DNA of 60,740 nt from NCBI GenBank assembly GCA_026419515.1, contig JANZZG010000018.1, forward strand, positions 1 to 60,740. The letters run 5' to 3'. A program made the position numbers and the translations under genes. Source of the stretch: Methylophilaceae bacterium (GTDB taxonomy: Bacteria; Pseudomonadota; Gammaproteobacteria; Burkholderiales; Methylophilaceae). Positions 15,333 through 41,387 of the stretch are shown here, one piece after another (position 1 is the stretch's first letter; each line of letters opens with the position of its first letter). The notes beneath the pieces were generated by a model. The model did no database searches, was not told where the DNA came from, and saw only the letters and a list, made by a program, of their open reading frames with translations.

Positions 15333-15336
15333 GGCA

Positions 15337-16035: not shown

Positions 16036-16140
16036 GATGGCTCCACGCAAAATCCCAAAGATGGCATTTTAACCGCAATCGGCAAGTGCTAACAGTCTGA
16101 AATTGTTGCTTAAGGCCCCGCTATCCTGGAAAATTGTGGC

Positions 16141-17388: not shown

Positions 17389-17415
17389 CTTTTCCGACAG
17401 CCGTTATGATGTCGC

Positions 17416-17440
17416 GCGGCGCCTGCGGGCGTTTTATTTC
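17416..17440 (+). terminator. Weak intrinsic terminator after hemA
   Basis: CGCC, loop TGCG, and GGCG, followed by TTTTATTTC, 28 bases after the hemA stop. The stem is short (4-5 pairs), so it may terminate only partly. Confidence 0.35.
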
Positions 17441-17467
17441 TTCCACGATATCAACAAAGAGGTGAAA

Positions 17468-17989: not shown

Positions 17990-18005
17990 TCTGCTCGTTC
18001 CTTGA

Positions 18006-18043
18006 GCCGGTACGCGGTCGCGTACCGGCATGCCGTGATTTTT
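18006..18043 (+). terminator. Strong GC hairpin between SRPBCC gene and prfA
   Basis: An 11-base perfect inverted repeat, GCCGGTACGCG then CGCGTACCGGC, spans 18006-18029 with two bases between the arms; TTTTT follows at 18039-18043. The ten bases between stem and T run are more than a classic intrinsic terminator has. The prfA ATG is at 18046, so the hairpin also occupies the place of the prfA ribosome site. Confidence 0.5.
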
Positions 18044-18045
18044 CG

Positions 18046-19128
18046 ATGAAACCCTCCCTGGAAAAAAAGCTTGCCACCCTAAGCGAACGGCTCGAAGAAC
18101 TCAATCGCCTGTTGTCCAGTGCAGATGCAACTGCGGACTTGGACACCTACCGTAAGTTGTCGCGCGAGCACGCCGACATCACGCCGGTGGTCGAGCAATT
18201 CCGCCGTTATCGTCAGATCGAGGCGGACATCGCCGCAGCTCGGGAAATGTTGTCCGATCCCGAGATGAAAGCATTTGCAGAAGAGGAAATCGCCGCAGGC
18301 AAAGCCCGGCTGGAAGCCGCCGAGACCGAACTGCAAAAACTGCTACTGCCCAAGGACCCCAACGATGAACGTAGCATTTTCCTGGAAATCCGTGCCGGGA
18401 CGGGGGGCGATGAATCTGCCCTGTTCGCGGGAGATTTGTTCCGTATGTATACGCGTTATGCCGAACGAAAAGGCTGGAGGGTCGAGGTGATTTCGGCCAA
18501 TGAATCCGATCTGGGGGGCTACCGTGAAATCATCGCCCGTATCGAGGGACAGGGTGCTTACTCAAAATTGAAATTCGAATCCGGCGGACATCGAGTCCAG
18601 CGCGTGCCGGAAACCGAATCCCAAGGCCGTATCCACACTTCGGCTTGTACCGTGGCGGTGATGCCGGAAGCGGACGAAATCGCCGAGATAGCGCTCAACC
18701 CCGCCGATCTGCGCATCGAGACTTTTCGTGCCAGCGGTGCAGGCGGGCAGCACGTCAACAAGACCGACTCCGCCGTACGCATCACCCATCTGCCGACGGG
18801 GATCGTCGCAGAATGCCAGGATGGACGCTCCCAGCATGCCAACAAGGCTTCGGCCATGCGGGTGCTGGCAGCGCGCATTCGGGATGCCCAGCTGCGCGAG
18901 CAACAGGCCAAGGAAGCCGCTATCCGCAAAAGCTTGATCGGCAGCGGTGACAGAAGCGAGCGTATCCGCACCTACAATTTCCCACAAGGGCGCGTCACTG
19001 ACCACCGCATCAACCTCACCTTGTACAAAATCGATGCCATCATGGATGGCGACTTGGATGAACTGGTCAGCGCTTTGGCCAGCGAGTATCAAGCAGAGCA
19101 GCTGGCTGCTCTGAGTGAAGAAACGTGA
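18046..19128 (+). CDS. prfA: Peptide chain release factor 1
   Basis: Terminates translation at UAA and UAG; 360 residues. The codon-recognition tripeptide is P-E-T near residues 188-190 within [20 protein letters not shown] (Escherichia coli has PAT). The catalytic GGQ is in [20 protein letters not shown] (about 233-235). No Shine-Dalgarno sequence is visible; a hairpin ends 16 bases before the ATG. prmC, the methyltransferase for the GGQ glutamine that often follows prfA, is not in the window. The convergent asmA-like gene ends 33 bases downstream. Confidence 0.97.
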
Positions 19129-19161
19129 CCTTCCCCAGGGGGCTGCCAGTTAGCCGTCGAC

Positions 19162-22100
19162 TTATAAGCCGAGTAGCTTGTTCAGTTTTTTCCTGATTTT
19201 TTCTTCTGGGGTAGGTTTGGGGGGGTGCTCCGGCTGAGCCGGTGGAGCAGCAGCAGGTGCCGCATCGGGAGTAGCGCCTCCGGTGGCTTGGGCCGGTGCA
19301 GCGTCTGGCGCAGAGGTGGGCGCTGGCGCAGCAGGCGTGGCTGCGCTCTCATGCTTGCCGCCCATCAAGCTTTCCAATGCTCCGGTTTTGTCCCCTGACA
19401 ACAGCTTTTGCACCGCATCGCCTTTGCTGCCCGCCATGTTGCCGAGCAGATTTTTTTGTGCCAACGCCGCGCCGATGGCAGCGAAATCGAGCGCATATTT
19501 CGGGTCGGAGAAACTGCCGGTCACTTTCACCGGGATGGTCATACCATTCAGCGCTTCCAGTTCTGGCCCGCCCTGGCCCTTGAGGGTGGCCACCACGGTG
19601 GGTTTGGCGAGATAGTCGAGCCTTTCGTTGCCAATGTCGATGTCACCACTTCCAGTGATGCGAAACAACGGCGCCTTGATGACAAGATCGTCGTTGTGTG
19701 CCACACCATTCTTGATGACGAAACTCGCCTTCATCTCGCTGAAATCGGTTTTTTTACGTCGATCCACGCCCACATTCCCCTGCGCTTTGAAAGCGTTGAG
19801 CTTGGTCTTGATTTCACGGATGGTACCGGCGAGATCGAATCCCTTGATGGCGCCATCGGCCAGCTGGACCACGGCACTGCCATTGAGCGCCCGCTTCAGT
19901 GCACCAGTGGTAGCACCCTGGGTTTTGACGTCCAACGACAGCGTACCTCGACCATCCAGCATATCGTTGTTGATCGCATCCACCAACAGCGGGCCGATGG
20001 TGATGTTCTTCATCTCCTGCTTGAAGGCGATCGTCGGGGTGGTACGGGCATCCACGTGGAGCGTGCCGGCCATGGCACCCTGATAGAGGTTGGCAGAAAA
20101 GGGCGCCAATGCGACCTGCCCATCGGCAGCCTTGAAGGCGAGCTTGACGTTGCTGGTCTTGACGTTGGCCAGCTTGAGCCAACCGATTCTGGCGTCACCA
20201 CTGGCATTGAGCGTTTTCAGCGGCGTCAGGTCGATGGGCGTGTCACCGGACGATTTGGCGGTGGGCTGGCTTGGGGTGAGGTAGCGGTCAGCGTCCAGCC
20301 GGTCGATGTCCATGTCGAAACTGAACACCGGTTGTTCGAAACGGCTCACACCCAAAGTCGCATTGACGGTACTGTCATCGACCTTGGCGACCAGCGGCGA
20401 CAGCGATAGCCTTTGGCCATCGGCACGGAGCCCGGTGCGCAGTCCAGTGATCTGGTAACGATCATATTTCAGCTCGGCTATGCGCAGGTTACCATGGGCT
20501 TTGATCTGCTTGAGGATGCCAAGATCAAGTGGCTTTTTTTCGGCAGCGGCCGGGCTGCCTCCCGCAGCCAGATAGCGGTTGGCGTCCAGCCGATCGATGT
20601 CGAGATCGAAACCGAACACCGGGCTGGCGAACTGGCTGACGCTGACATTGCCGCGGATTTGACTGTTGTCGATTTTGAGCGACAGAGGATCGATCTCGAG
20701 CTTGTCACCATTGGCCTTGACATCGATACGGATATTGGAGGCGGTGAATTGGCCCGTTTTCAGACTGCCGATGCGCAACACGCCGGCGGCATTCAGCGCC
20801 TTGAGTGCGGACAGGTCGAGCGGCTGGTCGGTTTTGGATTTGCCGTCGCCCTTGGGTAGATAACGGTCCGCATCCAGCCGGTCGATGTCGAGGTCGAAGG
20901 TGTAGAGCGGCTGGTCGAAATGGCGGACGCCGATCTGCCCCCTGATCTGGCTGTCGTCGAGCTTGAGGCTGAGCGGGCTCACCGTCAGCGCCTGCCCGTC
21001 GGCCTTGAGGGTGGCGGCGAAATGAGCGATACGGTATTGCGCGTAGACGATGCTACCAATGGCGATATTGCCTTGCGCCAGCACATTCTTCAATGCCGAC
21101 AGGTTGGCCGGCTTGTGCGTGGCAGGCGTGGCCGCCTGCGATTTGCCGAGCAATTTGTTGAAGTCCAACTGATCCGCCGTCAGATCGAACCTGACGTTGG
21201 GCCGGTCGAACCCGACCACGTCCAACCGGCCCTTGACCTGGCTGCCATCGATGTCGGCGGCGAGGGTAGCAGCAGCTCGTTGCTGTTTCAGATCGGCACG
21301 CGCGTTAAGGTCGAGGGCAATCTTGGCGACACCTCGTGGGAGCGCTGGATCCTTGACATCGATCCGGCCAACCAGCCGGGGCAACTCGAACACCCGGGTT
21401 TCCAAGTTACCGTTGATGGGCGAAGCAAACTGGCCCGCTAACGTTCTCGTCCCCTGCCGGCCCGAGATTTCCCCGGAGATGCCGGAGCTCTGGAACCCCC
21501 TGGGTGAGCCCTCGAGGTCGGCGACGGTGAGCCGGGCAGTCATTACGTCGTCGCCACGCCCGTGGGTGACAGCCAAACGCACGTCCTTGCCGCTCACCTC
21601 GTCTTTACGTACGGAGAGACCTGGCGTCGCCAAATTCACTGCCAATGTCTTGCCATCGAGGCTGGCCTTGGCGACGAGCTTGAGATCATCCAGTAGCAAT
21701 TCGCCCATTTGCGGCTTGATCTCGAGGTCGCCGGTAATCTTGACCTCCAGCCCATGGGCGCGGTCGATATCGCCTTGCAGAGTCGCATCGAGTCCTTGGG
21801 CGGTGAACAGCTTGTGCCCAGCATCAACCAACAAGCGGCCTTTGATTTCCGCCTGCGCATTCATTTTCGGGTTATCCGCCATCACATGGAATTGGGTCTC
21901 CAGATCGATCGGTTGATCTTTGGTGATATGGCCAGTTTTGAGCGACATGCCATCGATGCGGACATGGCGGTTGTCCATCTCGTCGGTCAGGTCGAGCGCC
22001 GCGTTGCGTACCACCACGCCATCGATGTCGAATTGGATCTCCTCCGACTCCTCCTTCGACAACAGGTCATCGAAATTGGTGGTGCCATCCCTGAAACGCA

Positions 22101-22449
22101 CGAGATGGGCTCTGACCCCGTCCAGGTGGACGGTATCGACCACCAACCGTCTCTCCAGCAATGGCATCACGGCGACGAATACCCTGGCGCTTTGCACGGC
22201 GGCGAATTCCCGACCACCATTGCGCTCCGACAGCGCCACCCTGCCCAGATCAGCGCCAATTTTGGGCCAGAACGCCAACTTGATGTCACCTTCGATGGTG
22301 AGTGTACGCTGCTTCTTTTCCTTGACCATCTTCACGATCAAGGGCTTGTAGTCGTTGGGATCGAACGTCAGCGCGAACACCACCAGCGCCGCAGCCACCA
22401 GACCGATCAAAACGCCGACGCCGATCAGGGTGTATTTCAAAATCTTCAT
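19162..22449 (-). CDS. AsmA-family envelope protein with four internal repeats
   Basis: Very large (1095 residues) inner-membrane-anchored protein of the AsmA/bridge-like lipid-transfer superfamily. One N-terminal membrane helix (about residues 5-30) is followed by a long beta-rich periplasmic region. The central part carries four tandem units of 96-97 residues ending in signatures such as FDLDIDRLDADRYL. The conserved AsmA C-terminal domain follows (GRGTLSLDVKTQGATTGALK, then DLAGTIREIKTKLNAFKAQG, then RLDYLAKPTVVATLKGQGG). The tail is Ala/Pro-rich and ends with a short basic helix. It follows exoD by 3 bases. A role in lipid traffic to the outer membrane is family-based inference. Confidence 0.9.
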   Translation of the reverse strand: MKILKYTLIGVGVLIGLVAAALVVFALTFDPNDYKPLIVKMVKEKKQRTLTIEGDIKLAFWPKIGADLGRVALSERNGGREFAAVQSARVFVAVMPLLERRLVVDTVHLDGVRAHLVRFRDGTTNFDDLLSKEESEEIQFDIDGVVVRNAALDLTDEMDNRHVRIDGMSLKTGHITKDQPIDLETQFHVMADNPKMNAQAEIKGRLLVDAGHKLFTAQGLDATLQGDIDRAHGLEVKITGDLEIKPQMGELLLDDLKLVAKASLDGKTLAVNLATPGLSVRKDEVSGKDVRLAVTHGRGDDVMTARLTVADLEGSPRGFQSSGISGEISGRQGTRTLAGQFASPINGNLETRVFELPRLVGRIDVKDPALPRGVAKIALDLNARADLKQQRAAATLAADIDGSQVKGRLDVVGFDRPNVRFDLTADQLDFNKLLGKSQAATPATHKPANLSALKNVLAQGNIAIGSIVYAQYRIAHFAATLKADGQALTVSPLSLKLDDSQIRGQIGVRHFDQPLYTFDLDIDRLDADRYLPKGDGKSKTDQPLDLSALKALNAAGVLRIGSLKTGQFTASNIRIDVKANGDKLEIDPLSLKIDNSQIRGNVSVSQFASPVFGFDLDIDRLDANRYLAAGGSPAAAEKKPLDLGILKQIKAHGNLRIAELKYDRYQITGLRTGLRADGQRLSLSPLVAKVDDSTVNATLGVSRFEQPVFSFDMDIDRLDADRYLTPSQPTAKSSGDTPIDLTPLKTLNASGDARIGWLKLANVKTSNVKLAFKAADGQVALAPFSANLYQGAMAGTLHVDARTTPTIAFKQEMKNITIGPLLVDAINNDMLDGRGTLSLDVKTQGATTGALKRALNGSAVVQLADGAIKGFDLAGTIREIKTKLNAFKAQGNVGVDRRKKTDFSEMKASFVIKNGVAHNDDLVIKAPLFRITGSGDIDIGNERLDYLAKPTVVATLKGQGGPELEALNGMTIPVKVTGSFSDPKYALDFAAIGAALAQKNLLGNMAGSKGDAVQKLLSGDKTGALESLMGGKHESAATPAAPAPTSAPDAAPAQATGGATPDAAPAAAPPAQPEHPPKPTPEEKIRKKLNKLLGL
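20277..21200 (-). repeat. Four coding repeats of 288-291 bp inside the AsmA gene
   Basis: The DNA for the RLDADRYL-type signature recurs at 20293, 20584, 20872 and 21163, a period of 291, 288 and 291 bases (96-97 residues). The three units nearest the 3' end of the gene are close copies; the fourth, RFDLTADQLDFNKLLG, has diverged. Confidence 0.8.
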
Positions 22450-22452
22450 GGT

Positions 22453-23079
22453 TTATCCGCCGAAATAGGTGAGCGCCTCTTTTCCGAACAGCCACAGCAT
22501 AATGAAAAACACGCTGAAATAGACGACCGTGACGACCAGCCAGAAAAACGCCACGAAAATCATGAGGCCGTCTTCCTCGAGCTCACCGATGCCATAAAAC
22601 AGGATGGCCAACCCCGGCAGCACATTGTTGAGTGGCAACACACCAAACGGAATGGCCATCAGGGCTCCGCCGGCCAGCAGCACGAAACCACCCACCTTCT
22701 GACCCTGGCGCCCACTGACCAGAAAAGTATAACGAGGTCGGGTGAACTTACGGCAAAAACCAACGATTTTCAGGCAAACATTGACGATGATGTGCCAGGT
22801 GTGTTCACTGAATTCCACTCGCCGGACTTTTTCCGGCAATACGGGCGATTCATGGCCGCGCATCAGTTGCCAGCCCAGGGTGGCGAACGTCAAACCCCCG
22901 ATCACGGTCAAGGGACCCAGCGGGAGTGGTTGCAGGAAAGGCAATACCAGAATGATGGCGATGAAGGCATAAGCCGCTTCATCCAGCGTATCCATGGCCT
23001 CCCCCAGGGTCAGATGCCCCCCCTTGGCGCGCTCGGCGAAGCCATGCAGCGTATTGATGAGCGTGTGATAGTCGCACAT
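22453..23079 (-). CDS. ExoD-family membrane protein
   Basis: Integral membrane protein of 208 residues matching the ExoD family (exopolysaccharide synthesis protein ExoD of rhizobia). The N-terminal cytoplasmic part has LTLGEAMDTLDEAAYAFIAI. Several hydrophobic helices follow, with LPFLQPLPLGPLTVIGGL and GALMAIPFGVLPLNNVLPGL, the Pro/Gly-rich loops typical of the family, and a C-terminal pair of helices. The molecular role is not known. It lies 2 bases after uppP and 3 bases before the AsmA gene, so the three form an envelope operon. Confidence 0.85.
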   Translation of the reverse strand: MCDYHTLINTLHGFAERAKGGHLTLGEAMDTLDEAAYAFIAIILVLPFLQPLPLGPLTVIGGLTFATLGWQLMRGHESPVLPEKVRRVEFSEHTWHIIVNVCLKIVGFCRKFTRPRYTFLVSGRQGQKVGGFVLLAGGALMAIPFGVLPLNNVLPGLAILFYGIGELEEDGLMIFVAFFWLVVTVVYFSVFFIMLWLFGKEALTYFGG

Positions 23080-23081
23080 GA

Positions 23082-23888
23082 TCAGGGCCTATTCCAAAAA
23101 TATGCCAGCACGATGGCACCGAATGAGATACGGTACCAGGCAAAGACGCGAAAATCGTGGTGTGCCACGTAGCGCAGCAGGCCACGAATCACCAAAAGCG
23201 CGCTAACGAAAGCCGTCACGAAGCCAGTAGCGAACATCGGTAGATCCGCGGCATAGAGGTTGCCATGATTTTTGTAAACATCCAATGTGGTCGCAGCAAA
23301 CATGGTGGGAATGGCAAGAAAAAATGAAAATTCCGTCGCAGCCTTGCGCGACAGCCGGAACATCACGCCGCCCAGGATGGTCGCGCCGGCACGCGACACT
23401 CCTGGAATCAGTGCCACACACTGCGCGAACCCCACTTTGAGTGCGTGCTTCCAGTCCATTTCGTCCACGACATGGGTATCCGGTGGCGGCGCATACTTTT
23501 CGATGGCCAAGATGGCGACTCCTCCCAGAATCAGGGCCCAGGCCACGGTGAGGGGAGAAAATAGATATTCCTTGATCGCATGGTGAAAAAAGAACCCCAA
23601 TACCGCTGCCGGCAGGAAGGCGACGAGCAGGTTGACGGCGAAGCGCTGCGAGGCTGCCTCCGTTTTCATGCTGGCCAGCACATGGCCGAGCTTGGCGCGG
23701 TATTCCCAGCACACTGCCAGAATCGCGCCCAGCTGGATCACAATCTCGAACACCTTACCACGCGTGTCGTTGAAGGCAAGCAAATCGCCGACGATGATCA
23801 GGTGGCCGGTGCTGGAGATGGGAAGGAATTCGGTCGCACCCTCGACGAGTCCGAGCAGGAAGGCTTTGGCAATGAGGTTGAGGTCCAT
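23082..23888 (-). CDS. uppP: Undecaprenyl-diphosphatase
   Basis: Inner-membrane enzyme of 268 residues that dephosphorylates undecaprenyl pyrophosphate to recycle the wall-lipid carrier. EGATEFLPISSTGHLIIVGD is the first catalytic motif. The second is PGVSRAGATILGG, where most homologues have PGxSRSG; the catalytic Ser-Arg is kept but the following Ser is Ala. About eight hydrophobic segments are visible. No Shine-Dalgarno sequence precedes the ATG, and a TATAAT lies only about ten bases upstream. Confidence 0.95.
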   Translation of the reverse strand: MDLNLIAKAFLLGLVEGATEFLPISSTGHLIIVGDLLAFNDTRGKVFEIVIQLGAILAVCWEYRAKLGHVLASMKTEAASQRFAVNLLVAFLPAAVLGFFFHHAIKEYLFSPLTVAWALILGGVAILAIEKYAPPPDTHVVDEMDWKHALKVGFAQCVALIPGVSRAGATILGGVMFRLSRKAATEFSFFLAIPTMFAATTLDVYKNHGNLYAADLPMFATGFVTAFVSALLVIRGLLRYVAHHDFRVFAWYRISFGAIVLAYFWNRP

Positions 23889-23897
23889 ACAGGACGG

Positions 23898-23903
23898 ATT
23901 ATA
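23898..23903 (-). promoter_or_regulatory. Candidate -10 element of the uppP operon
   Basis: A perfect TATAAT on the minus strand, centred about 12 bases before the uppP ATG. If used, the transcript would begin about 3 bases ahead of the start codon, almost leaderless. No good -35 is present. Confidence 0.3.
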
Positions 23904-23998
23904 TGCCAGAGTGAAATTCTCGGTTCGGATCGAGACAGTGCCCCACAGTCAAAAGTATGGAGATAAGCGCCCCATACAAAGGAATGGATCCTGGACAT

Positions 23999-24007
23999 TG
24001 ATATAAT
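23999..24007 (+). promoter_or_regulatory. Extended -10 promoter of trmB
   Basis: TGATATAAT is an exact extended -10 element, with transcription expected near 24014, about 23 bases before the trmB ATG. No convincing -35 is seen, as is common for extended -10 promoters. Confidence 0.5.
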
Positions 24008-24036
24008 CTTTGGGTTTTCCGTCGATCCCTTGATTC

Positions 24037-24705
24037 ATGCAACACCAACGCCCCATACGCAGTTTTGTCTTGCGTCAGGGAAGATTCACACCCGCCCAGC
24101 GGCGTGCCATCGAGACCCTCATGCCGCGATATGGGATTCCTTATCTGCCCACACCGCTAAACCTGGACAAAGTGTTTGGTCGAGTAGCCCCCAAAATCCT
24201 CGAAATCGGTTTCGGCATGGGGACGGCGACGGCACAAATCGCAAAGGCTCGCCCTGACCAAGACTATCTCGGCATTGAAGTACATGGACCCGGAGTGGGG
24301 AATTTACTCAAACTGATCGAGGCCCTTGGCTTGACCAACCTGCGTGTCATACAACATGACGCGGTGGAAGTGCTGCGCGACATGATTGCAGACGGCACAC
24401 TGGATGGCGTGCACATTTTTTTCCCTGATCCATGGCCCAAAAAACGCCATCACAAACGCAGGCTAATCCAGCCGGCCTTCGTTGCCTTGCTTGCGCAAAA
24501 GCTCAAACCTGGAGGGTACCTCCATTTGGCGACCGACTGGCGGGAATATGCGGAGTGGATGCTACAAGTGCTGCAGAAAGAACCTCGGCTGGAAAATACC
24601 GTACAGGACTATGCGACACCAGGCGATCGTCCCGAAACCAAATTCGAGCAACGTGGATTGCGTCTAGGGCATGGGGTCTGGGATATCGTGTTTCGCCGAA
24701 TATAG
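24037..24705 (+). CDS. trmB: tRNA (guanine-N7)-methyltransferase
   Basis: Methylates G46 in the variable loop of tRNAs using SAM; 222 residues. The SAM-binding motif [17 protein letters not shown] and the signature [20 protein letters not shown] are intact, followed by [18 protein letters not shown]. The last 42 bases overlap the end of engB on the opposite strand, so both C-termini are encoded by the same DNA. Confidence 0.96.
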
Positions 24706-25290
24706 CCAGGGCCCGACGATTTTTTCCACCTCCTCGACCCCTTGTTTCTTCAGGCTGGAGAAAAGCTGCACGGTATGGTTGCCCCAGCCTTCCTGCAATG
24801 CCTTCCTGACCCCAGCCAGCGTTCTCAGCGCTGCGCTTTTCGACAGTTTGTCGGACTTGGTGAGCAACACGTGTACCGGCTTGCCGGTAGGACAGAACCA
24901 GTCCAGCATCTGACGATCCAACGGCGTGAGTGGATGACGGACATCCATCACCAGCACCAAACCGCGCAAGCTAGGACGTGTCAATAGATATGTGGAAAGC
25001 AAACGCTGCCAATGTAGGCGCATGGCCTCAGGAACCTTGGCATAACCGTAGCCTGGCAAATCCACTAGATAGACACCTTCCCCGAGCGAAAAAAAATTGA
25101 TCTGTTGCGTGCGGCCAGGCTGTTTACTGACGAAAGCAAGCCGCGTGTGGTTGGCCAGTGTATTGATGACACTGGATTTACCTGCATTGGAACGTCCGGC
25201 GAAGGCAACCTCGACGCAATCATCGGCCGGCGGCAATTCGTTCAGCTGATGGGCGGAAATGTAGTAGGTGGCGTTCTGGAAGAGTGGCAT
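24664..25290 (-). CDS. engB: Ribosome-biogenesis GTPase EngB/YsxC
   Basis: Essential small GTPase of about 208 residues involved in large-subunit assembly and cell division. G1 is [14 protein letters not shown]2 [10 protein letters not shown]3 [10 protein letters not shown] and G4 [10 protein letters not shown]. The start at 25290 gives [16 protein letters not shown]; the longer upstream frame runs across the divergent cytochrome gene and is rejected. The 3' end overlaps trmB by 42 bases, convergently. Confidence 0.95.
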
Positions 25291-25315
25291 GTCGGAACGT
25301 ATTGCAATCACACCC

Positions 25316-25329
25316 GCATGGTACCATGC
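25316..25329. promoter_or_regulatory. Perfect 14-bp palindrome between engB and cytochrome c gene
   Basis: GCATGGTACCATGC lies in the 102-base divergent spacer. It could be an operator for either gene; there is no further evidence for a regulator. Confidence 0.25.
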
Positions 25330-25392
25330 AAGCCCATCGGGAATCGGATAAAATCGTGCCAGTTTTTGAATCCAAATATTGAGGAGCATATC

Positions 25393-26040
25393 ATGAAGTT
25401 TCCTGCGATTGCGCTCATGCTGGCCGGCCTGCTCAGTATGAATGCCGCAACCGCCGCCGAAGCCGCCAAGGCCCCTGCCGCGAAGCCCGAGCCCACCAAA
25501 TCGGAAGCCCCCAAAGATGCCGCCACCCTTGTCAACACGGTATGTGCCGCTTGCCACAATGCCGACGGTAACAGCGTCATCACGGCCAATCCCCGCCTGG
25601 CGGGTCAGCATGCCGCCTATCTCGCCAAACAACTGCGCGATTTCCAGTCTGGCAAACGTGCCAGCCCGGTGATGGCACCCCTGGCGGCCACGCTCACGCC
25701 ACAAGACATCACCCAGCTAGCGGCCTACTTCGCGGCGCAGAAGCCCAAGGGGGGGACTGCCAAAGAAAACGGTCCCGGCTCGCTCGGCGAAAGAATCTAT
25801 CGCGGCGGTTTAGCGGCTAAAGGCGTGCCGGCGTGCGCGGCTTGTCATGGCCCGAATGGCGCCGGTATTCCGATCCAGTTTCCGCGTCTGAGTGGCCAGC
25901 ATGCGGAATATACGGTCAACCAGCTCAAGGCGTTCCGCTCTGGCGAACGTGCCAATGCACCCATGATGAAAGTCATTGCCAGCAAAATGACCGACGAGGA
26001 AATCGTGGCCGTTTCCGACTACATCCAGGGGCTGCACTGA
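25393..26040 (+). CDS. Diheme cytochrome c (c4 type)
   Basis: Periplasmic electron carrier of 215 residues. A signal peptide ending near ATAAEA is followed by an Ala/Lys/Pro linker and two homologous cytochrome c domains. Heme sites are CAACH at about residues 50-54 and again at about 148-152. Axial methionines are probably in the SPVMAPLA and APMMKVIAS segments. GAGGAG precedes the ATG at 25393. The two-domain layout fits cytochrome c4, which hands electrons to terminal oxidases. The heme-attachment genes resB and ccsB follow at once. Confidence 0.92.
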
Positions 26041-26098
26041 TTTACGCCCCGATGCGCCTCGTCATGCGCCAAAGACCACCCGTGGGCGTTTCCGTGTT

Positions 26099-28069
26099 TT
26101 GAAGAGCCCGTCTCACAAGTTTGCGCGCGAACTCTATGAACTGTTGAGTTCCATGCGCTTTGCCGTCACGCTGCTGACGGCCTTGGGCATCGCCTCCATC
26201 ATCGGCACCGTGCTCAAGCAGAACGAGCCTTATCCGAACTACATGGTGCAGTTCGGGCAGTTCTGGTTCACCCTGTTCGAGCACATCGGTCTTTACGATG
26301 TCTACCACAGCGGCTGGTTCATCGCCATCTTGGCGTTTCTGGTGGCTTCGACCAGCTTGTGCCTCTACCGCCATACACCGCAGATGTTGCGCGAAATCCG
26401 TACCTGGCGCGAGTACGTCACGGAATCTTCCTTGCGCCTATTCAGCCACAAGGCGGAATACCGTAGTGTGCATCCGACAGAAGAGAGTTTACGCCGGATG
26501 TGCGCATTACTGACCGCCCGCGGCTTCCGCTTCCGCATCGTGGAGAATGCCGATGGCCGACTGATCACTGCCAAGGCCGGCAGCGCCCACCGCCTGGGCT
26601 ACATCCTGACCCATACAGCGATCGTCGTCATCTGTATCGGTGGCTTAATCGACGGAAACCTGTCGTTCAAGTTCCAGGAACTGATGGGCTGGAAAAAAAT
26701 AGAGACACGGGATCTTCCGGAAAGCAAAGTACCGCCGGAGAGCCGCATGCCCGCCTCCAACTTGTCGTTTCGAGGCAATTTGACCCTGCCCGAAGGAACG
26801 CGTGCCAATGTCGCTTTCCTGCGCGTACGTGATGGTTATCTGGTGCAGGAACTGCCGTTTTCGATCGCGCTCAAGCAGTTTCGCGTCGAACATTATGCCA
26901 ATGGCATGCCCAAATCGTTCGAAAGCGACGTGGTGATCATCGATCCTGAGCGCCAGACACCGTTGGAAGCGACCATTCGCGTCAACCATCCACTCATCCA
27001 TCGCGGGATCGCCATTTATCAATCCGATTTCCAGGATGGCGGCTCCAGTCTATCTTTCAAAGGCTGGCCTTTGACTGCGAATGCGGCCGTGCCATTCCAG
27101 CTGAACGGTAAAGTCGGCGAAAACGCCACCCTGACTACCCCGGACGGCCCCTTATCGGTCGAACTCGACGATTTCCGCTTGTTCAATGTACTGGACTTGA
27201 GCGAAGACGGTAAAGGCAAGCCACACAACGTGGGCCCCAGTGTGACTTTCAAGGTGCGCAATGCCGAAGGTCAGGCACGGGAATATCTCAACTACATGCA
27301 GCCCATGATGCTGAATGGTCGCGCCTATCTGGTGTCCGGTATGCGCACTGCGCAGAACGAGGATTTCCGCTATCTGCGCCTGCCGGTGGATGCCGATGGC
27401 ACCCTCGATAGTTTCATGCAGTGGCGTGCCCTGATGATGGATGCGGGCCAGGCACCGGTCATTGCCCAACGCCTTGCCGACAAGGCGCTGCAAGGAGAGT
27501 CGGTCAGCGAGACCCTGCGTGGCAAGTTCAAAGACAGCGTAGTGCGGCTATTAGGACTGTTCGCAAAAGGTGGGCTGACCGAGGTGGCAAACTTCATCGA
27601 AAAGTCGGTCCCCGAAGCCGAGCGCGAGAAAGCCGCCGAGACCTATCTCAAGATTCTGGAAAACGCGGCTTTCGAGGCTTACGCTTTGAGCCGCCAGGCC
27701 GCAGGCAAACCGCTACCGACCGCTGATGCGACAGTGACGGCGTTTCTGCGCGACAGTCTCAATGCTGCCAGTGACGTTTTTTTCTACGGCACCCCGTTTT
27801 ACCTGCAGTTGACGGATTTCCAGCAGCGCCAGGCCAGTGGCTTCCAGCTGACTCGGGCGCCCGGCAAGAACCTGGTGTATGGCGGCTCGCTGCTGCTGGT
27901 GCTGGGCATTTTCGCCATGTTCTACATCCGGGAACGTCGTGTCTGGCTGCTGGTCAAACCTGGCCAGAGCCAAGTGCTCTTTGCCATGTCCGGCACGCGC
28001 AGAAACCGTGATTTCGAAGCCGAGTTCGAGCATCTCAAAAGCCAGCTGCAGCAACTATTGGAGGAATAA
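26099..28069 (+). CDS. resB: Cytochrome c biogenesis protein ResB (Ccs1)
   Basis: System II cytochrome c maturation protein, 656 residues, forming the heme-handling and ligation complex with CcsB. ELYELLSSMRFAVTLLTALG and IASIIGTVLKQNEPYPNYMV mark the conserved N-terminal membrane part. More membrane helices follow near residues 75-95 and 165-185, then a large periplasmic domain and a last helix near 605-625. The start is a TTG at 26099; no in-frame ATG or GTG lies nearby. A 16-codon reading frame from 26052 ends over this start and might couple translation, but it is probably chance. Confidence 0.94.
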   Translation: MKSPSHKFARELYELLSSMRFAVTLLTALGIASIIGTVLKQNEPYPNYMVQFGQFWFTLFEHIGLYDVYHSGWFIAILAFLVASTSLCLYRHTPQMLREIRTWREYVTESSLRLFSHKAEYRSVHPTEESLRRMCALLTARGFRFRIVENADGRLITAKAGSAHRLGYILTHTAIVVICIGGLIDGNLSFKFQELMGWKKIETRDLPESKVPPESRMPASNLSFRGNLTLPEGTRANVAFLRVRDGYLVQELPFSIALKQFRVEHYANGMPKSFESDVVIIDPERQTPLEATIRVNHPLIHRGIAIYQSDFQDGGSSLSFKGWPLTANAAVPFQLNGKVGENATLTTPDGPLSVELDDFRLFNVLDLSEDGKGKPHNVGPSVTFKVRNAEGQAREYLNYMQPMMLNGRAYLVSGMRTAQNEDFRYLRLPVDADGTLDSFMQWRALMMDAGQAPVIAQRLADKALQGESVSETLRGKFKDSVVRLLGLFAKGGLTEVANFIEKSVPEAEREKAAETYLKILENAAFEAYALSRQAAGKPLPTADATVTAFLRDSLNAASDVFFYGTPFYLQLTDFQQRQASGFQLTRAPGKNLVYGGSLLLVLGIFAMFYIRERRVWLLVKPGQSQVLFAMSGTRRNRDFEAEFEHLKSQLQQLLEE

Positions 28070-29215
28070 ATGGAGTTGATTCGCGAATCTGTTGCCCCCT
28101 CGCCATTGCTCAAGAAGCTCAATTGGGTGGACTGGGCGTATGCTCTGCTGTTGTTGACAGGCGGTGTGTTTGCACTGCACCAGTATGGTGCCTATATGGA
28201 TGCCTACGAGAAATGGTTTCTGATGGGTGCGGTCGCTGGCTTCAGTTGGTTGGGCTGGTTCTGGAAACCCATCCGCATGCTGATCATTGGCATTGCTGCA
28301 CTCAGCCTGTTCGGAATTGACCAGTATCACGCCGACCTGGGGCGCGGCGAGCAGGCTTTCTTCCTCAAGTTTTTCCTCGCCAGCCAGACCGCCATCATGT
28401 GGATGAACGTGCTGTTCGTGCTGGCCATGGCGGCCTACTGGCTGGCCCTGTTCGCACGTTCGGAATTCCCCGGCAAGGTGGCCAGCGGGCTGACCTGGTC
28501 GGCCGTGCTGATGGGATTCACCGGCCTCATGGTGCGCTGGTATGAGTCCTATCTGATCGCGCCGGATGTCGGCCACATCCCCATCAGCAATCTGTATGAG
28601 GTGTTCGTGCTATTCTGTCTGATCACGGCGCTGATGTACCTGTATTACGAGGCCAGATACCAGACCCGCCAGCTGGGCGGTTTCGTGTTATTGATCATCA
28701 ATGCAGCGGTCGGGTTCATCCTGTGGTACACCTTCGATCGTCAGGCTCACGGCATCCAGCCACTGGTGCCCGCGCTGCAGAGCTACTGGATGAAAATCCA
28801 CGTGCCGGCCAACTTCATCGGTTACGGCGCGTTCTCGCTGGCAGCCATGGTGGCATCGGCCTACCTGCTGTCCATACGCGGGATTCTGGCCTCGCGGCTA
28901 CCCTCGCTGGAGGTGCTGGACGACCTCATGTACAAGGCCATCGCCGTGGGGTTCGCTTTCTTCACCATCGCCACCATCCTCGGTGCGATGTGGGCGGCGG
29001 AGGCCTGGGGCGGCTACTGGTCATGGGATCCCAAGGAAACCTGGGCGCTGATCGTCTGGCTCAACTATGCCGCCTGGCTGCACCTGCGGCTGGTCAAGGG
29101 GTTGCGCGGCCCGTTGCTGGCATGGTGGGCGCTGATCGGGTTGCTGGTGACGACGTTTGCTTTCCTCGGCGTCAATATGTTTCTGTCCGGCCTGCATTCC
29201 TACGGCCAGCTGTAA
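28070..29215 (+). CDS. ccsB: Cytochrome c biogenesis protein CcsB (CcsA/ResC type)
   Basis: Polytopic membrane heme transporter/synthetase of system II, 381 residues. The tryptophan-rich WWD heme-binding segment reads WGGYWSWDPKETWALIVWL near residue 310. Conserved histidines for heme are seen in the flanking loops (for example MKIHVPANFIGYGAFSL). The ATG follows the resB TAA with no gap, so the pair is co-translated. Together with the diheme cytochrome upstream it forms a small c-type cytochrome cluster. Confidence 0.95.
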   Translation: MELIRESVAPSPLLKKLNWVDWAYALLLLTGGVFALHQYGAYMDAYEKWFLMGAVAGFSWLGWFWKPIRMLIIGIAALSLFGIDQYHADLGRGEQAFFLKFFLASQTAIMWMNVLFVLAMAAYWLALFARSEFPGKVASGLTWSAVLMGFTGLMVRWYESYLIAPDVGHIPISNLYEVFVLFCLITALMYLYYEARYQTRQLGGFVLLIINAAVGFILWYTFDRQAHGIQPLVPALQSYWMKIHVPANFIGYGAFSLAAMVASAYLLSIRGILASRLPSLEVLDDLMYKAIAVGFAFFTIATILGAMWAAEAWGGYWSWDPKETWALIVWLNYAAWLHLRLVKGLRGPLLAWWALIGLLVTTFAFLGVNMFLSGLHSYGQL

Positions 29216-29230: not shown

Positions 29231-29460
29231 TTACTCTTCGGAAAAATAATCCGAGTCGATTTTCTTGACTTCGTAGGTGGCGGCGACAGAGACGCCCACA
29301 TTGTTTTCGATCATCAGGCGCGCAAGGGCCATGCCATCGATGAGGACCACCTTGTAACTGATGTTCTTGACGTATTCTTGCGCCTCGTTGCTGAAACGTG
29401 GTGATGAACATACCCTTGTGCGCACGCTGGCCTTGCAGGGCGCCTACGAATTTCTGGACT
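29231..29460 (-). pseudogene. Remnant of an Mrr-type restriction endonuclease gene
   Basis: Only the C-terminal end of an Mrr-like protein is left. RPEVQKFVGALQGQRAHKGM followed by FITT is read in one frame. The continuation FSNEAQEYVKNISYKVVLID, then LARLMIENNVGV and YEVKKIDSDYFSEE up to a TAA at 29231, is in another, so there is a frameshift near 29398-29404. The upstream catalytic and DNA-binding parts are missing; the homology begins right where the ParA gene ends. The Mrr assignment is from remembered family sequence; the frame break is seen directly. Confidence 0.8.
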
Positions 29461-30234
29461 TCAGGCCGGATTGAAAAACCCGCTGGCCAGCAATTCCTCT
29501 GCCAATGCGTTGTAATCCCTGGCGCCTTGGCTGTGGGGCGCGAACGTGAATACATCGCGCCCATGGACGGGACTTTCCGCCAAACTCACGGTTTCGGCAA
29601 TGCGCGTTTCGCACAAGTCCTTCCCATAGTGCTCACGCAATTTATCGTAAATGTCATAGGACAGCCGTCTACGTGAATCGAAACGCGTCAACACCACGCG
29701 CCGCTCTATTCTTTTTCCCAGCGGTTTTTCCAGGACACGCAATGCGGCATCGAGTCGGTTGACTCCCTGCAACGACAAGTAATCAGCCGATACCGGGATC
29801 AGTAGGCGCTGCGCGGCGAATACCGCGTTGAGGGACAGCACGCCCAACATGGGGGAACAATCGATCAATACCGGGATCATCTCGTCCGGCAGCAGTTCCT
29901 GAGTCAATCCTTTCTTCAAATGGCTGGTGATATTGGGATTGCGCCCATACAACGCATCGATCTTGAACAGTTCCATGTGGGCTGGAATCAGATGCGCGCC
30001 ATTCGGCAGTTCGCGCATCAGTTGAGAAAGTGGCTTGTTTTCACTGTAGAAGGCGTAGATGGTCTCGCTGCTGGGCAGCCCTCTGATCCCACTAGCGAGC
30101 GTCAGATGGGCCTGTGGATCGAGGTCGATGCCCAAGGGAAAACGTCCACGTTGGGCCAAAGCCGCCAACAAATTGAGGCTAGTGGTGGTCTTGCCTACGC
30201 CCCCCTTCTGATTGAACACCGCGACCACAGACAT
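29461..30234 (-). CDS. Orphan ParA-family ATPase
   Basis: Deviant Walker ATPase of 257 residues: FNQKGGVGKTTTSLNLLAAL is the P-loop with signature lysine, GIDLDPQAHLTLA the switch I region, and PVLIDCSPMLGVLSLNA Walker B. It is distinct from the chromosomal ParA at 41384-42148 and has no ParB partner beside it. It lies 10 bases after glmS and its end abuts a decayed mrr fragment. It could position a plasmid-like or large protein cargo; the target is not visible. The last residues (ASGFFNPA) may have been altered by the event that left the mrr scar. Confidence 0.88.
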   Translation of the reverse strand: MSVVAVFNQKGGVGKTTTSLNLLAALAQRGRFPLGIDLDPQAHLTLASGIRGLPSSETIYAFYSENKPLSQLMRELPNGAHLIPAHMELFKIDALYGRNPNITSHLKKGLTQELLPDEMIPVLIDCSPMLGVLSLNAVFAAQRLLIPVSADYLSLQGVNRLDAALRVLEKPLGKRIERRVVLTRFDSRRRLSYDIYDKLREHYGKDLCETRIAETVSLAESPVHGRDVFTFAPHSQGARDYNALAEELLASGFFNPA

Positions 30235-30244
30235 GGCTGCGCCC

Positions 30245-32074
<1,830 letters not shown>

Positions 32075-32078
32075 GGCG

Positions 32079-33455
32079 CTAATGGTCCTTTTTTCGTGGC
32101 CGCTTCCAACCCAGGATGGTGAGCTGCTTGCAACGCGACAAAGTAAGCTCGCCAGCAGGAGCATCACGTGTGATGGTGGAACCTGCCCCTATGGTAGCCC
32201 CTTCGCCCACCGTCACGGGCGCCACCAGCTGCGTGTCGGATCCAATGAAAGCATAGTCTTCAATCACCGTACGATGTTTTTGGGCGCCATCGTAATTACA
32301 GGTGATGGTACCTGCTCCGATATTGACCTGACTGCCTACCGTGGCATCGCCGATATAGCTCAAATGATTGATCTTGCTCCCGACACCAACGGTACTGTTT
32401 TTTATTTCGACGAAATTCCCGATGTGTACCTGACTGTCGAGCACGGTGCCGGGACGTAATCGTGCGTATGGACCAATCACGGCCCCTTGCCCGATCTGCA
32501 CACCATCGAGGTGGCTATGGGGCTGGATTATGGTACCAGGTCCAATACGGGTATTGCGTATGACGCAATGTGCACCCACTTGCACACCATCTTCCAGTTC
32601 AACCTCGCCCTCGAACAGGCAATTGATGTCGATCATGACATCGCGTCCACACCTGAGTGTGCCGCGCACGTCCAGGCGGGCGGGATCGGCCAGCGTGACA
32701 CCTTGACGTAACAGGGATTCCGCCACGCGTTTTTGATAGAGACGTTCCACGCGAGCAAGATCAGCCTTGCTGTTGACCCCCAGCACTTCGGACGCATGTT
32801 GCGTTTGCACAGCCATCACGCGTACACCATCGGCTTTCGCCATCGCCACGACATCCGTGAGGTAATATTCACCTTGCGCATTGTTAGGCTGCAAGCGATC
32901 CAGCCAGCCAGCCAGCCGGGCTGTGGGCAATGCCATGATGCCCGTATTGACTTCGCGGATCGTGCGTTGCTCTGGCGTGGCATCACGTTCTTCCACGATA
33001 CCACACACTTCTCCTCCGAACGCACGGAGGATACGGCCATATCCCGTTGGGTCATCCAATTCCACGGTCAATATCGCCACATGACCATTCGAAGCATGGT
33101 GAATCACGTTGTGACATGTCCGCGCCGAGACCAATGGCACATCGCCCAACAACACCAGTGTCACCGGTGCTGTTGTGAGATGGGGCTGTGCTTGCATCAG
33201 GGCATGCCCAGTGCCTTTCTGCTCGCCTTGCCTGACCCAGATGACACGTCCATCCCCGATGGCCTGAGGCACTTTTTCACCACCAAAACCATACACCACG
33301 CAGCAGCATGATGGTTCGAGTGCCCAGGCCGTTTCGAGCACATGTAAAAGCAGAGGCCGGCCAGCCAGCGGATGCAATACTTTGGGAAGGTCGGAATGCA
33401 TGCGTGTACCCTTGCCGGCGGCAAGAATCACGACATTAGGAGCATGGACAGACAT
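32079..33455 (-). CDS. glmU: Bifunctional N-acetylglucosamine-1-phosphate uridyltransferase / glucosamine-1-phosphate acetyltransferase
   Basis: Makes UDP-GlcNAc for peptidoglycan and lipopolysaccharide; 458 residues. The uridyltransferase domain opens with [20 protein letters not shown], and the C-terminal half is a left-handed beta-helix of hexapeptide repeats with [20 protein letters not shown] (acetyltransferase). It starts only 17 bases after the T run of the ATP-synthase terminator and has no clear Shine-Dalgarno sequence. A TATACT at 33463-33468 would give a leaderless transcript if used. It is coupled to glmS. Confidence 0.97.
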
Positions 33456-33472
33456 ACTGATAAGTATAAAAC

Positions 33473-33500
33473 AAAAAAATAGGCAGCCAGCGGCTGCCTA
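33473..33500 (-). terminator. Intrinsic terminator of the ATP synthase operon
   Basis: On the minus strand TAGGCAGCC, loop GCT and GGCTGCCTA form a perfect 9-pair stem (33480-33500) followed by seven T residues (33473-33479). It lies 20 bases after the atpC stop and reads in the atp direction. Confidence 0.9.
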
Positions 33501-33520
33501 TACTTTATCGATGCTATGCA

Positions 33521-33946
33521 TCAATGATCTTTTTTGCGCAGCTTGCGTATCGTCTGCAACTGTGCCATGGCTTCTGCCAGCTCGACTTGGGCTCGTGCAT
33601 AATCAAGCTTGGAAGATTTGTCTTTCATGGCCTCTTCGGCCGCCTGCTTGGCTTCCAACGCTTTGGCTTCGTCGATATCGTGGCCGCGTATGGCCGTATC
33701 CGCCAATACAGTCACCACACTGGGCTGCACCTCGAGAATACCGCCCGAGACGAAGATGACCTCTTCCTCTTCCTGGTTCGGCACCTTGACACGTACTGCA
33801 CCCGGTCTAAGTAGACTGATGAATGGTGCGTGACGGGGATAGATCCCCACCTCACCCCTAACGGCTGGTGCTGCCACGAATTCCGCCAATCCAGAATAAA
33901 TGGACTGCTCAGCGCTCACGATGTCCACATGGATGGTCATTGCCAT
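33521..33946 (-). CDS. atpC: ATP synthase F1 epsilon subunit
   Basis: Central-stalk and regulatory subunit of the F1Fo ATP synthase, 141 residues. The N-terminal beta sandwich has [20 protein letters not shown] and [20 protein letters not shown], and the C-terminal helical hairpin (about 90-135) ends in [12 protein letters not shown]. It is the last gene of the atpIBEFHAGDC operon and is followed by a strong intrinsic terminator. Confidence 0.96.
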
Positions 33947-33974
33947 GGTCTTGGGTTCTCGCGTGTGAAGTTAA

Positions 33975-35420
<1,446 letters not shown>

Positions 35421-35434
35421 TCATTGCGCCATCA

Positions 35435-36298
35435 TCAAACCGCAGCGGCACCGCTGACGATTTCGGATATTTCTTTGGTAATCGCGGCTTGACGCTCTTT
35501 GTTGTACATCAGCTTGAGTTCGCTGATCACGTTCTTGGCATTGTCAGAGGCGGCCTTCATCGCCACCATGCGTGCACTTTGTTCTGAGGCCATGTTCTCC
35601 GCTACGGCATGGAACACCAGTGATTCCACATAACGGATCAGCAGATCGTCGATCACTTCTTTGGCATTCGGCTCATAAATGTAGTCCCAATGCCCTTCCG
35701 CACTCCCTAGTTTCTCTCCGGACAGCGGCAACAGCTGCTCCAGGACCGGTTCCTGTTTCATGGTATTGATGAATCGGGTGTAGCACATATAAAGGGCATC
35801 GATCTCACCGGACACAAAAGCATCCAACATCACCTTGACTGGCCCGATCAGCTTTTCCATGTGTGGCGCATCGCCCAATCCATGCACCTGCGACTTCACA
35901 TTACCGCCGATGCGACTCATGAAACCGAGGCCTTTGTTGCCGATGGCACAGATGGAAATGGCTTTGCCTTCGCCTTCCCACTCTTTCATTCGGCTCAACG
36001 CCATGCGTAGTACATTGGTGTTGAGACCGCCACACAATCCTTTGTCGGAAGTGATGATGATCAGACCGACGTTTTTCACGCTGTCACGCTTGATCAGAAA
36101 CGGATGCTTGTATTCCGGATGCGCATGGGACAAGTGAGCAGCGACGTTACGGATTTTTTCGGCATAGGGACGAGCGGCACGCATCCGGTCCTGAGCCTTG
36201 CGCATTTTGGATGCCGCCACCATTTCCATGGCTTTGGTGATCTTGCGCGTATTCTCGATACTTTTGATCTTGTTGCGTATTTCCTTGCTGCCGGGCAT
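35435..36298 (-). CDS. atpG: ATP synthase F1 gamma subunit
   Basis: Rotor shaft of F1, 287 residues. The N-terminal helix [20 protein letters not shown] and the C-terminal helix with [15 protein letters not shown] form the coiled coil that turns within the alpha3beta3 ring. [17 protein letters not shown] in the middle domain is characteristic. It lies 12 bases after atpA. Confidence 0.97.
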
Positions 36299-36310
36299 GT
36301 CGCGCTCCGT

Positions 36311-37852
36311 TTAGTAGGCGTTGGTTGCCTTGAAATCCTGAATCGCTGCGGCCAGCGCTTGTTCGTCCTCCTTACTCAGGTCCTTGGTGGTCTCGATGTT
36401 GTCCATTAGTGCCTTGTATTTTGACTTCATAAAGGAATGCAGTGCAGACTCGAACGCCAGCACCTTGTTCACCGGGACATCGTCCAGATAACCCCCATTG
36501 ACGGCAAAGAGCGACACCGCCATTTCCGAAACGCTCATCGGAGCATACTGTACCTGCTTCATCAACTCGGTCACGCGGCGTCCGCGCTCCAGTTGTTTGC
36601 GGGTAGCTTCATCGAGGTCGGAGGCGAACTGGGCGAATGCCGCCAGCTCACGATACTGCGCGAGCGCGAGACGCACACCCCCGCCCAGTTTCTTGATGAC
36701 TTTGGTCTGCGCAGCACCACCCACGCGGGATACCGAAATACCCGCATTCATGGCAGGACGTATCCCAGCGTTGAACAGGTCGGTTTCCAGAAAGATCTGG
36801 CCGTCGGTAATGGAAATCACATTGGTGGGAACGAAAGCCGAAACGTCACCTGCCTGGGTTTCGATCACCGGGAGCGCAGTCAATGAACCCGTTTTACCCT
36901 TGACTTCACCGTTGGTGAATTTCTCAACGTATTCAGCGTTGACGCGCGCGGCCCGCTCCAGCAAGCGGGAATGCAAATAAAACACATCCCCTGGATAGGC
37001 TTCCCGACCTGGTGGACGACGCAGCAGCAGCGATACTTGACGGTAGGCCCAGGCTTGCTTGGTCAAGTCGTCATAAATGATGAGCGCATCCATGCCTCGG
37101 TCACGGAAATACTCACCCATGGTGCAACCCGCATAGGGTGCAATGAACTGCATCGCAGCAGATTCAGAAGCCGTGGCGGCGACCACGATGGTATATTCCA
37201 TCGCACCATGTTCTTCCAGCTTGCGCACTACGTTGGCCACGGTGGAAGCCTTTTGACCCACCGCCACGTAGATGCAGAACATGTTCTGACCCTTTTGGTT
37301 GATGATAGTGTCTACGGCGACGGCCGTCTTGCCGGTCTGGCGGTCACCAATGATCAACTCACGCTGACCTCGCCCGATCGGCACCATGGAGTCGATCGCC
37401 TTGAGCCCGGTTTGTACCGGCTGTGATACCGATTGGCGAGCGATGACGCCGGGCGCGACCTTTTCGATCTTGTCGGTCAGCTTGGCGTTGATCGGCCCTT
37501 TGCCATCGATGGGCTGACCAAGCGCGTTCACCACCCGCCCCAATAATTCCGGACCAACGGGCACTTCCAAGATACGTCCCGTGCACTTGACGGTCGCGCC
37601 TTCGGAAATATGCTCGTATTCACCCAAAATCACCGCGCCCACGGAATCACGCTCCAAGTTGAGCGCCATGCCATAAGTATTGCCCGGGAATTCCAGCATT
37701 TCGCCCTGCATGACATCGGACAATCCGTGAATGCGCACGATACCGTCGGTCACGGAAACCACCGTCCCTTGAGTGCGCGCTTCAGCGCTGGCATCGAAAT
37801 TTTCCAAGCGACTTTTGATCAGTTCACTGATTTCAGATGTGCTCAATTGCAT
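36311..37852 (-). CDS. atpA: ATP synthase F1 alpha subunit
   Basis: Non-catalytic nucleotide-binding subunit, 513 residues. The P-loop is [18 protein letters not shown] (about 169-186). The N-terminus [20 protein letters not shown] binds delta, and the signature [20 protein letters not shown] is complete. It starts 9 bases after the atpH stop. Confidence 0.98.
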
Positions 37853-37861
37853 TTGTCTCTC

Positions 37862-38398
37862 CTAACCTTTCAGCGTATACGCCATTTCCTGGAGGCGGCC
37901 ACGCACTGAAGCATCGATCACGGTGTCGCCCACGATGACTTTCACGCCACCAATGATCTCGGGATCCACATCGACCTTTGCTACGATTTTTTGCTTGAAG
38001 CGGGACTCCAGCCGGGCAACGATCATTTTGATTTGATCATCGGTCAACGCGGTAGCGGCTATGATCTGCGCCTCTGCTACGCCTTCGTCCTGCGCTCTCA
38101 TTTCCTCGAAAAGCCGCGCGATCTCTGGCACCAGACACAATCGCCTGTTTTCCAGCAACAACCTGACCAAGTTGACGCCCGCTGCATCCAACCGATCGCC
38201 AGCGACATCCAGAAATACCTTTTCTACCTGGGCGCGAGTTACCCTAGGATCATCGTCGAGTGCGCACATCTGGGCATCCTCGGCAATCGCTTTGATCAAG
38301 GCCAGCATCTCAGACCAGTGTGCCAACGCCCCTTTTACCTTCGCCAGCCGGTAGATTGCAGCTGCGTAGGGCCTTGCTATGGTGACCGGTTCAGCCAT
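37862..38398 (-). CDS. atpH: ATP synthase F1 delta subunit
   Basis: Peripheral-stalk cap of 178 residues linking F1 alpha to the Fo b dimer. The N-terminal six-helix domain starts TIARPYAAAIYRLAKVKGAL, and the C-terminal part has VDPEIIGGVKVIVGDTVIDA followed by SVRGRLQEM, the family signature. It lies 6 bases after atpF. Confidence 0.96.
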   Translation of the reverse strand: MAEPVTIARPYAAAIYRLAKVKGALAHWSEMLALIKAIAEDAQMCALDDDPRVTRAQVEKVFLDVAGDRLDAAGVNLVRLLLENRRLCLVPEIARLFEEMRAQDEGVAEAQIIAATALTDDQIKMIVARLESRFKQKIVAKVDVDPEIIGGVKVIVGDTVIDASVRGRLQEMAYTLKG

Positions 38399-38404
38399 GA
38401 TGGG

Positions 38405-40523: not shown

Positions 40524-41387
40524 TCAGCCGGAGACTTCGGCCAAGCCCATACGAGCCAAAATCCCTTCTAGTTCATCGAGCGAATTGAATTCCACGACCA
40601 ATTTACCAGCACCTTTATGTGTATGGCGTATTGTCACTTTGGCAGCCAAGTGGTCGGCGATTTCTTCCTGTAATCTGAGTATATCGCGATCAGGTTCGAT
40701 CACGGCTTTTTTGCGAGGACGTAGCATGGCGTGCACCAGGCGCTCTGCCTCCCGTACCGATAGCTTTTTTTGTGCGATTTGCTGGGCTATCGCAATCTGC
40801 TTGGCACCCTCCAGGGACAACAGGGCACGCGCATGCCCCATGTCGATATGTCCCTGCATCAGCAACTCTTGCACCGGCATGGCCAGATTGAGAAGCCGCA
40901 ACAAATTGGTTACCGCGGTCCTAGAGCGCCCTATCGAATCCGCCGCCATTTGATGGGTCATGTTGAATTCGTCGATCAAACGCTTAATACCCGCAGCCTC
41001 TTCCAATGGGTTGAGATTCTCCCGCTGGATGTTTTCGATCAACGACATTGCCAAAGCGGCTTCATCTGCTATCTCACGTACCAAGGCGGGTATCGTGTCC
41101 ATGCCGGCCAGCTGTGCGGCACGCCAACGGCGCTCGCCAGCGACGATTTCATATTGGTCTTGGTCTATTGGGCGCACCAGAATGGGGGACATGACACCCC
41201 GCGCCTTGATGGACTCAGCCAGCTGCTGTAAGGATTCTTGATCCATTTGGGTGCGAGGCTGGTATTTGCCTGGTTGGAGCTGACCCACTTTCAAAGTACG
41301 CAGCACGTCATTGCGCGCAACCGCATCCAGGTCACCACCCAGCAAAGCATCCAAGCCGCGTCCAAGCCCTTTTTGCGTCGCCATCAT
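40524..41387 (-). CDS. parB: Chromosome-partitioning protein ParB (Spo0J)
   Basis: CTP-dependent DNA clamp of about 287 residues that loads at parS and organises the origin region. GLGRGLDALLGG is the N-terminal ParA-stimulating motif. IVAGERRWRAAQLAGMDTIP is the CTP-binding/arginine-rich box, and a helix-turn-helix follows (QMAADSIGRSRTAVTNLLRL). Start at 41387 or the next Met at 41384; the former overlaps the parA stop. Two parS sites are in the window. Confidence 0.97.
   Translation of the reverse strand: MMATQKGLGRGLDALLGGDLDAVARNDVLRTLKVGQLQPGKYQPRTQMDQESLQQLAESIKARGVMSPILVRPIDQDQYEIVAGERRWRAAQLAGMDTIPALVREIADEAALAMSLIENIQRENLNPLEEAAGIKRLIDEFNMTHQMAADSIGRSRTAVTNLLRLLNLAMPVQELLMQGHIDMGHARALLSLEGAKQIAIAQQIAQKKLSVREAERLVHAMLRPRKKAVIEPDRDILRLQEEIADHLAAKVTIRHTHKGAGKLVVEFNSLDELEGILARMGLAEVSG

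Follow-up and report, generated by a model that had tools for sequence, protein, structure and literature searches.

Mrr-type solitary endonucleases are type IV-like, modification-dependent enzymes that are composed of the Pfam domains Mrr_N and Mrr_cat and correspond to the PADLOC model mREase_IV. The truncation of a gene at a chromosomal inversion breakpoint is a known kind of event in bacteria. Here, we describe the tail of an mrr gene that lies against the end of a ParA gene in a Methylophilaceae bacterium (GenBank assembly GCA_026419515.1). The window, i.e., the whole stretch of DNA that was analyzed, is 60,740 nucleotides long. The mrr tail very probably (roughly 0.83) came to lie here through a chromosomal inversion that snapped mrr, and not through a deletion on the spot.

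The features at the border, by window position, are as follows.

28070..29215, plus strand: ccsB (cytochrome c assembly; Pfam Cytochrom_C_asm, E 5.4e-46), convergent, at the end of the putative inverted segment
29216..29230: 15-bp spacer from the mrr stop codon to the ccsB stop codon
29231..29404, minus strand: mrr remnant, second frame (FSNEAQEYVKNISYKVVLIDG ... DSDYFSEE-stop), residues 248-304 of a 304-aa homologue, with the original stop codon
29397..29398, minus strand: frame break in the mrr remnant, where 5 bases are absent relative to seven aligned mrr sequences (DNA alignment)
29397..29468, minus strand: mrr remnant, first frame (RPEVQKFVGALQGQRAHKGMFITT), residues 225-248 of the homologue
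29461..30234, minus strand: second (non-parAB) ParA-type ATPase gene, full length (Pfam AAA_31, E 2.9e-33)
29468..29469: putative inversion junction between ParA and mrr, exact to within a few bases that the two sides share, placed by the homology limits and the reciprocal junction

The reference for the remnant is the intact Mrr protein of a relative in the same family (G016, locus L006), which is 304 aa long, contains Mrr_N and Mrr_cat, and matches PADLOC mREase_IV at E 9.8e-93. The full-length protein was searched against the bacterium's own genome, a draft of 1.86 Mb in 73 contigs that is 92.9% complete, with an E limit of 10. Two matches are observed, one at 29480-29394 on the minus strand (residues 221-249, E 4.6e-8) and one at 29404-29234 on the minus strand (residues 248-304, E 1.8e-18), and no third mrr piece was found in the whole genome at E up to 10. 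Clean homology begins at R225, at position 29468, and the remnant (minus strand, 29468-29231) thus covers the last 80 of the 304 residues. The first-pass annotation had described the last quarter of an Mrr-like endonuclease in two frames with a break near 29400, and had proposed a translated search as the check; the alignment of both pieces to the Mrr C-terminus bears this out. Over 24 and 54 residues, respectively, the pieces reach 88% and 74% identity to the intact protein. They differ from it in that the frame is broken by a single 5-base gap between 29397 and 29398, and in that three quarters of the protein are missing. The DNA alignment comprised seven mrr sequences, one of which (L005) is itself broken, and contained no further gap specific to the remnant within the homologous part.

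The remnant retains the C-terminal part of the catalytic domain. Pfam Mrr_cat matches it in two adjoining sub-threshold halves, profile positions 63-86 (E 9.4e-4) and 84-115 (E 1.3e-3), and the two pieces jointly cover positions 63-115. The QxK motif at residues 215-217 of the homologue, which we take to be the catalytic motif of Mrr, lies ahead of residue 225. Neither this motif nor the Mrr_N domain is present in the remnant, and the whole-genome query returned residues 221-304 only. Because QxK precedes the start of the remnant, no nuclease of this kind can come from it. Judged by its sequence, the mrr remnant is a pseudogene and not an enzyme.

The remnant nevertheless carries the mark of a former gene. 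Its stop codon (29231-29233) is retained 15 bp from that of ccsB. Differences at the first, second, and third codon positions number 17/8/37 against L006 (57 codons) and 12/5/40 against L005, a bias indicating that most of the divergence arose while the gene still worked and was under selection. The 17 records that a plasmid search with the remnant gave are all below 60% identity and thus do not point to a recent plasmid origin. Among solved structures, nothing matched the 58-aa mrr tail at E up to 1.

The border with ParA lies slightly inside the ParA reading frame. Homology to mrr had been said to begin exactly at the ParA stop codon; a decayed mrr tail does abut ParA, but it begins 8 bases within the ParA ORF, and these last 8 bases, stop codon included, fall in mrr-derived DNA. 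The final A codon and stop (GCCTGA) lie within the mrr stretch CGG CCT GAA. The six closest ParA orthologues are 78-90% identical and end, before the stop codon, in FFNPN, FFNP, FFNPEPG, FFEPPK, FFDPECSW, and FFDPECSW; the window ParA ends in FFNPA. ParA is thus complete, though it now ends on a stop codon in mrr DNA. With one of four references (L009), BLAST carried the match on as far upstream as 29513 (39 residues, 59% identity). Relatives conserve this stretch as part of the ParA coding region, and the extension is therefore taken as chance.

The window has two ParA-type ATPases (29461-30234 and 41384-42148), which are about 11 kb apart and 35% identical. The ParA that adjoins glmS keeps glmS as its neighbor in several betaproteobacterial loci. 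ParA, glmS, and ccsB in the window are all full length.

In relatives, ParA is followed by other genes. The survey of its neighborhood included 37 loci from named records with flanks of up to 6 kb. ParA is followed tail-to-tail by a short-chain dehydrogenase (SDR) gene in four of the six close orthologues: G018, G005, and G011, all three with dsbA as well, and G040 (to the contig end), which by coordinates are loci L097, L099, L100, and L101. Five more distant loci (L105 and L111-L114) have ParA followed by SDR-dsbA with 1.2-1.3 kb between. The other 28 of the 37 loci have no ParA-then-SDR order within the flanks compared; these include the remaining two close relatives, G025 and G008 (L098 and L102), where no SDR follows ParA, as well as Gallionella and Sideroxydans (57-61% identity) and many distant or short loci. 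Given the ParA-SDR order in relatives, the arrangement at ParA in this genome looks derived. No mrr was found beside ParA in 29 loci compared with flanks of 1.5 kb or in the 37 loci with flanks of up to 6 kb; the first-pass annotation had suggested looking for an intact mrr at this site in related genomes.

The mrr genes of the family sit behind aspS. With the G016 Mrr as query and an E limit of 1e-15, 18 of 187 family genomes gave a match, the bacterium's own included (loci L079-L096). Of the other 17, 16 have aspS on the strand of mrr and no more than about 0.6 kb ahead of it; in the 17th (G151), the contig ends about 185 bp upstream of mrr and the neighbor is unreadable. Identity of these copies to the G016 Mrr, G016 itself aside, ranges from about 26% to 82%. 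The gene 3' of mrr at this site varies; apt, a presumptive glyoxalase-like gene, and a presumptive nudB all occur there. Outside the family, of two genomes that gave a match, G084 also has aspS-mrr; in the 3.2 kb available for G096, aspS is absent.

Two small genes lie between aspS and mrr in G016 (L006:185-716), and a small-gene pair follows mrr in G007 (L005:1662-2157). Both pairs are presumably DUF4160/DUF2442-like and possibly form a small defense or toxin-antitoxin islet. The mrr copy of G007, at aspS, is itself broken by stops, and a 61-aa frame there is the end of this broken copy. Both mrr and the neighboring apt of G007 have stops or frame breaks (L005:767-2915), for which separate decay of the two genes or low quality at the end of the contig may account.

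The genes expected behind ParA are found elsewhere in the same genome. The SDR-dsbA pair is located on contig C50, tail-to-tail with the 3' end of aspS and 178 bp from it (L040/L073). The genome has two derived junctions, ParA/mrr in the window (C7) and aspS/SDR on C50, and both ancestral adjacencies, aspS-mrr and ParA-SDR, are found in relatives. The change of ParA-SDR and aspS-mrr into ParA-mrr and aspS-SDR is the signature of a two-break rearrangement.

The uninverted order is represented by Novimethylophilus kurashikiensis La2-4 (G018; Methylophilaceae), the closest relative compared by ParA and ccsB; by aspS, G005 is marginally closer (85% vs 84%). The relevant features are on its contig NZ_BDOQ01000003.1 (C3, 745 kb).

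388886-390664, plus strand: aspS
390820-391344, plus strand: apt
391347-392147, plus strand: DUF155
392225-393367, minus strand: ccsB
612538-613305, minus strand: ParA, adjoining SDR

The SDR-ParA pair is about 222 kb beyond the end of aspS on this contig. Flipping the segment from the aspS end to the ParA end yields both observed junctions with the strands right and with ccsB behind the mrr position, where it stands in the window. The window is colinear with N. kurashikiensis from ccsB outwards (24034-29215, with ccsB 85% identical) and from ParA outwards (29461-38404). On contig C50, colinearity is observed on the SDR side (C50:31000-39143) and upstream of aspS (C50:39321-42300), where it covers only about 3 kb. 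Window 15000-24000, C50:42300-50000, and C50:12000-31000 matched nothing in the compared stretches of G018 and G016, which end nearby.

In the proposed mechanism, a solitary Mrr (type IV-like) endonuclease gene would have stood downstream of aspS, on the aspS-ccsB side. Of the two breaks, one would have been immediately after the end of ParA, the other within mrr or adjacent to it. The inversion would have joined the 3' end of ParA to the mrr tail, and the 3' end of aspS to the SDR-dsbA pair formerly behind ParA. The flipped segment would be about 222 kb in the N. kurashikiensis gene order. Both junctions presumably stem from one event, with the break probably inside mrr itself. The front of mrr and the genes between mrr and ccsB may have been lost with the inversion or later, and the 5-base loss would have come after mrr was inactivated. 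Deletions are then needed only as further events, to remove the front three quarters of mrr and, probably, genes between mrr and ccsB; other genes follow mrr in relatives, and genes are thus probably missing at this point here.

Several gaps leave the inversion short of certain. The 178-bp aspS-SDR spacer matched none of four Mrr proteins at an E limit of 10, so a clean cut within mrr is only putative. The loci in which no SDR follows ParA, two of the six close relatives among them, also count against the inversion, as does the short colinearity on the aspS side. N. kurashikiensis gave no mrr match. The closeness of aspS and ccsB in this species is seen in none of ten other relatives with both genes located; they are 64 kb apart in G011 and on different contigs in the other nine, where the distance is unreadable. 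The apt query has no match in the bacterium's own genome and matches five of seven others (G008 and G030 are without). DUF155 was not found in the genome either, and among six genomes it is present only in N. kurashikiensis; it may therefore be a gain there rather than a loss here. Either a little sequence was lost at each end of the flip, or no genome compared has exactly the order that existed before the inversion. The 73-contig draft has one junction on C7 and the other on C50 and does not connect them, so a continuous inverted segment between the two is presumed. These gaps do not favor a local deletion.

A local deletion was the first-pass reading: a restriction locus would have stood between ParA and ccsB, with most of mrr removed in place to leave a scar. 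The remnant does sit between these two genes, with a complete 3' end and a 5' end cut at ParA. Yet mrr is beside ParA in none of the six closest ParA orthologues and follows aspS wherever its family neighbor is readable. About 219 kb separate ParA from ccsB in G018, and 176 kb in G011. The aspS/SDR junction, moreover, is left unexplained by a local deletion. We reject this reading as improbable on the reciprocal junction and the gene order in relatives; the ParA/mrr join has a partner in the same genome, and inversion explains it best. An assembly chimera, in which unrelated sequences were joined at ParA/mrr, is less probable still. The genome is indeed a draft of 73 contigs, 92.9% complete, but a chimera would require two mis-joins, made independently on two contigs yet reciprocal, that by accident mimic a simple inversion; moreover, the remnant already has its 5-base loss, and the window's ParA, glmS, and ccsB are intact in length. 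Least probable of all is a retained small gene with its own function in the short mrr-tail ORF (29231-29425, 64 aa), which is open to the original stop and shows the codon-position pattern of past selection, but which has no catalytic motif and a GTG start that falls in out-of-frame mrr sequence, while a search of 100 relatives with the 58-aa tail turned up no other short remnant and the sole other copy with stops among matches in the 187 family genomes (G007) is in a different state and at aspS.

The inversion reading resembles the known kind of breakpoint truncation in its two reciprocal novel junctions, its single cut gene, and its flanks colinear with an uninverted relative. It differs in that no repeats or mobile element were recognized at either junction within the sequence covered (the window and C50:12000-50000), where the spacer and the remnant gave nothing beyond short matches and no inverted repeats stood out. 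It also differs in that the neighboring ParA uses a stop codon inside the DNA of the truncated gene. The portions of the literature on mrr decay, Methylophilaceae inversions, and gene-disrupting inversions that were available to us contain no description of this case.

As a genome scar, the broken mrr is of an ordinary sort, if unusually easy to read, and no new system is indicated. A plausible but probably wrong local-deletion reading is corrected, and a 240-base pseudogene can place a chromosomal flip, telling which two loci joined and in which direction. The comparison also brings out an aspS-mrr site that genomes across Methylophilaceae share. Tentatively, and at somewhat less than even odds, the 3' flank of aspS may be a fixed site for solitary Mrr endonucleases in this family, where divergent alleles replace one another; the allele of this lineage would have been lost when an inversion broke there, making the defense site also a rearrangement-prone one.
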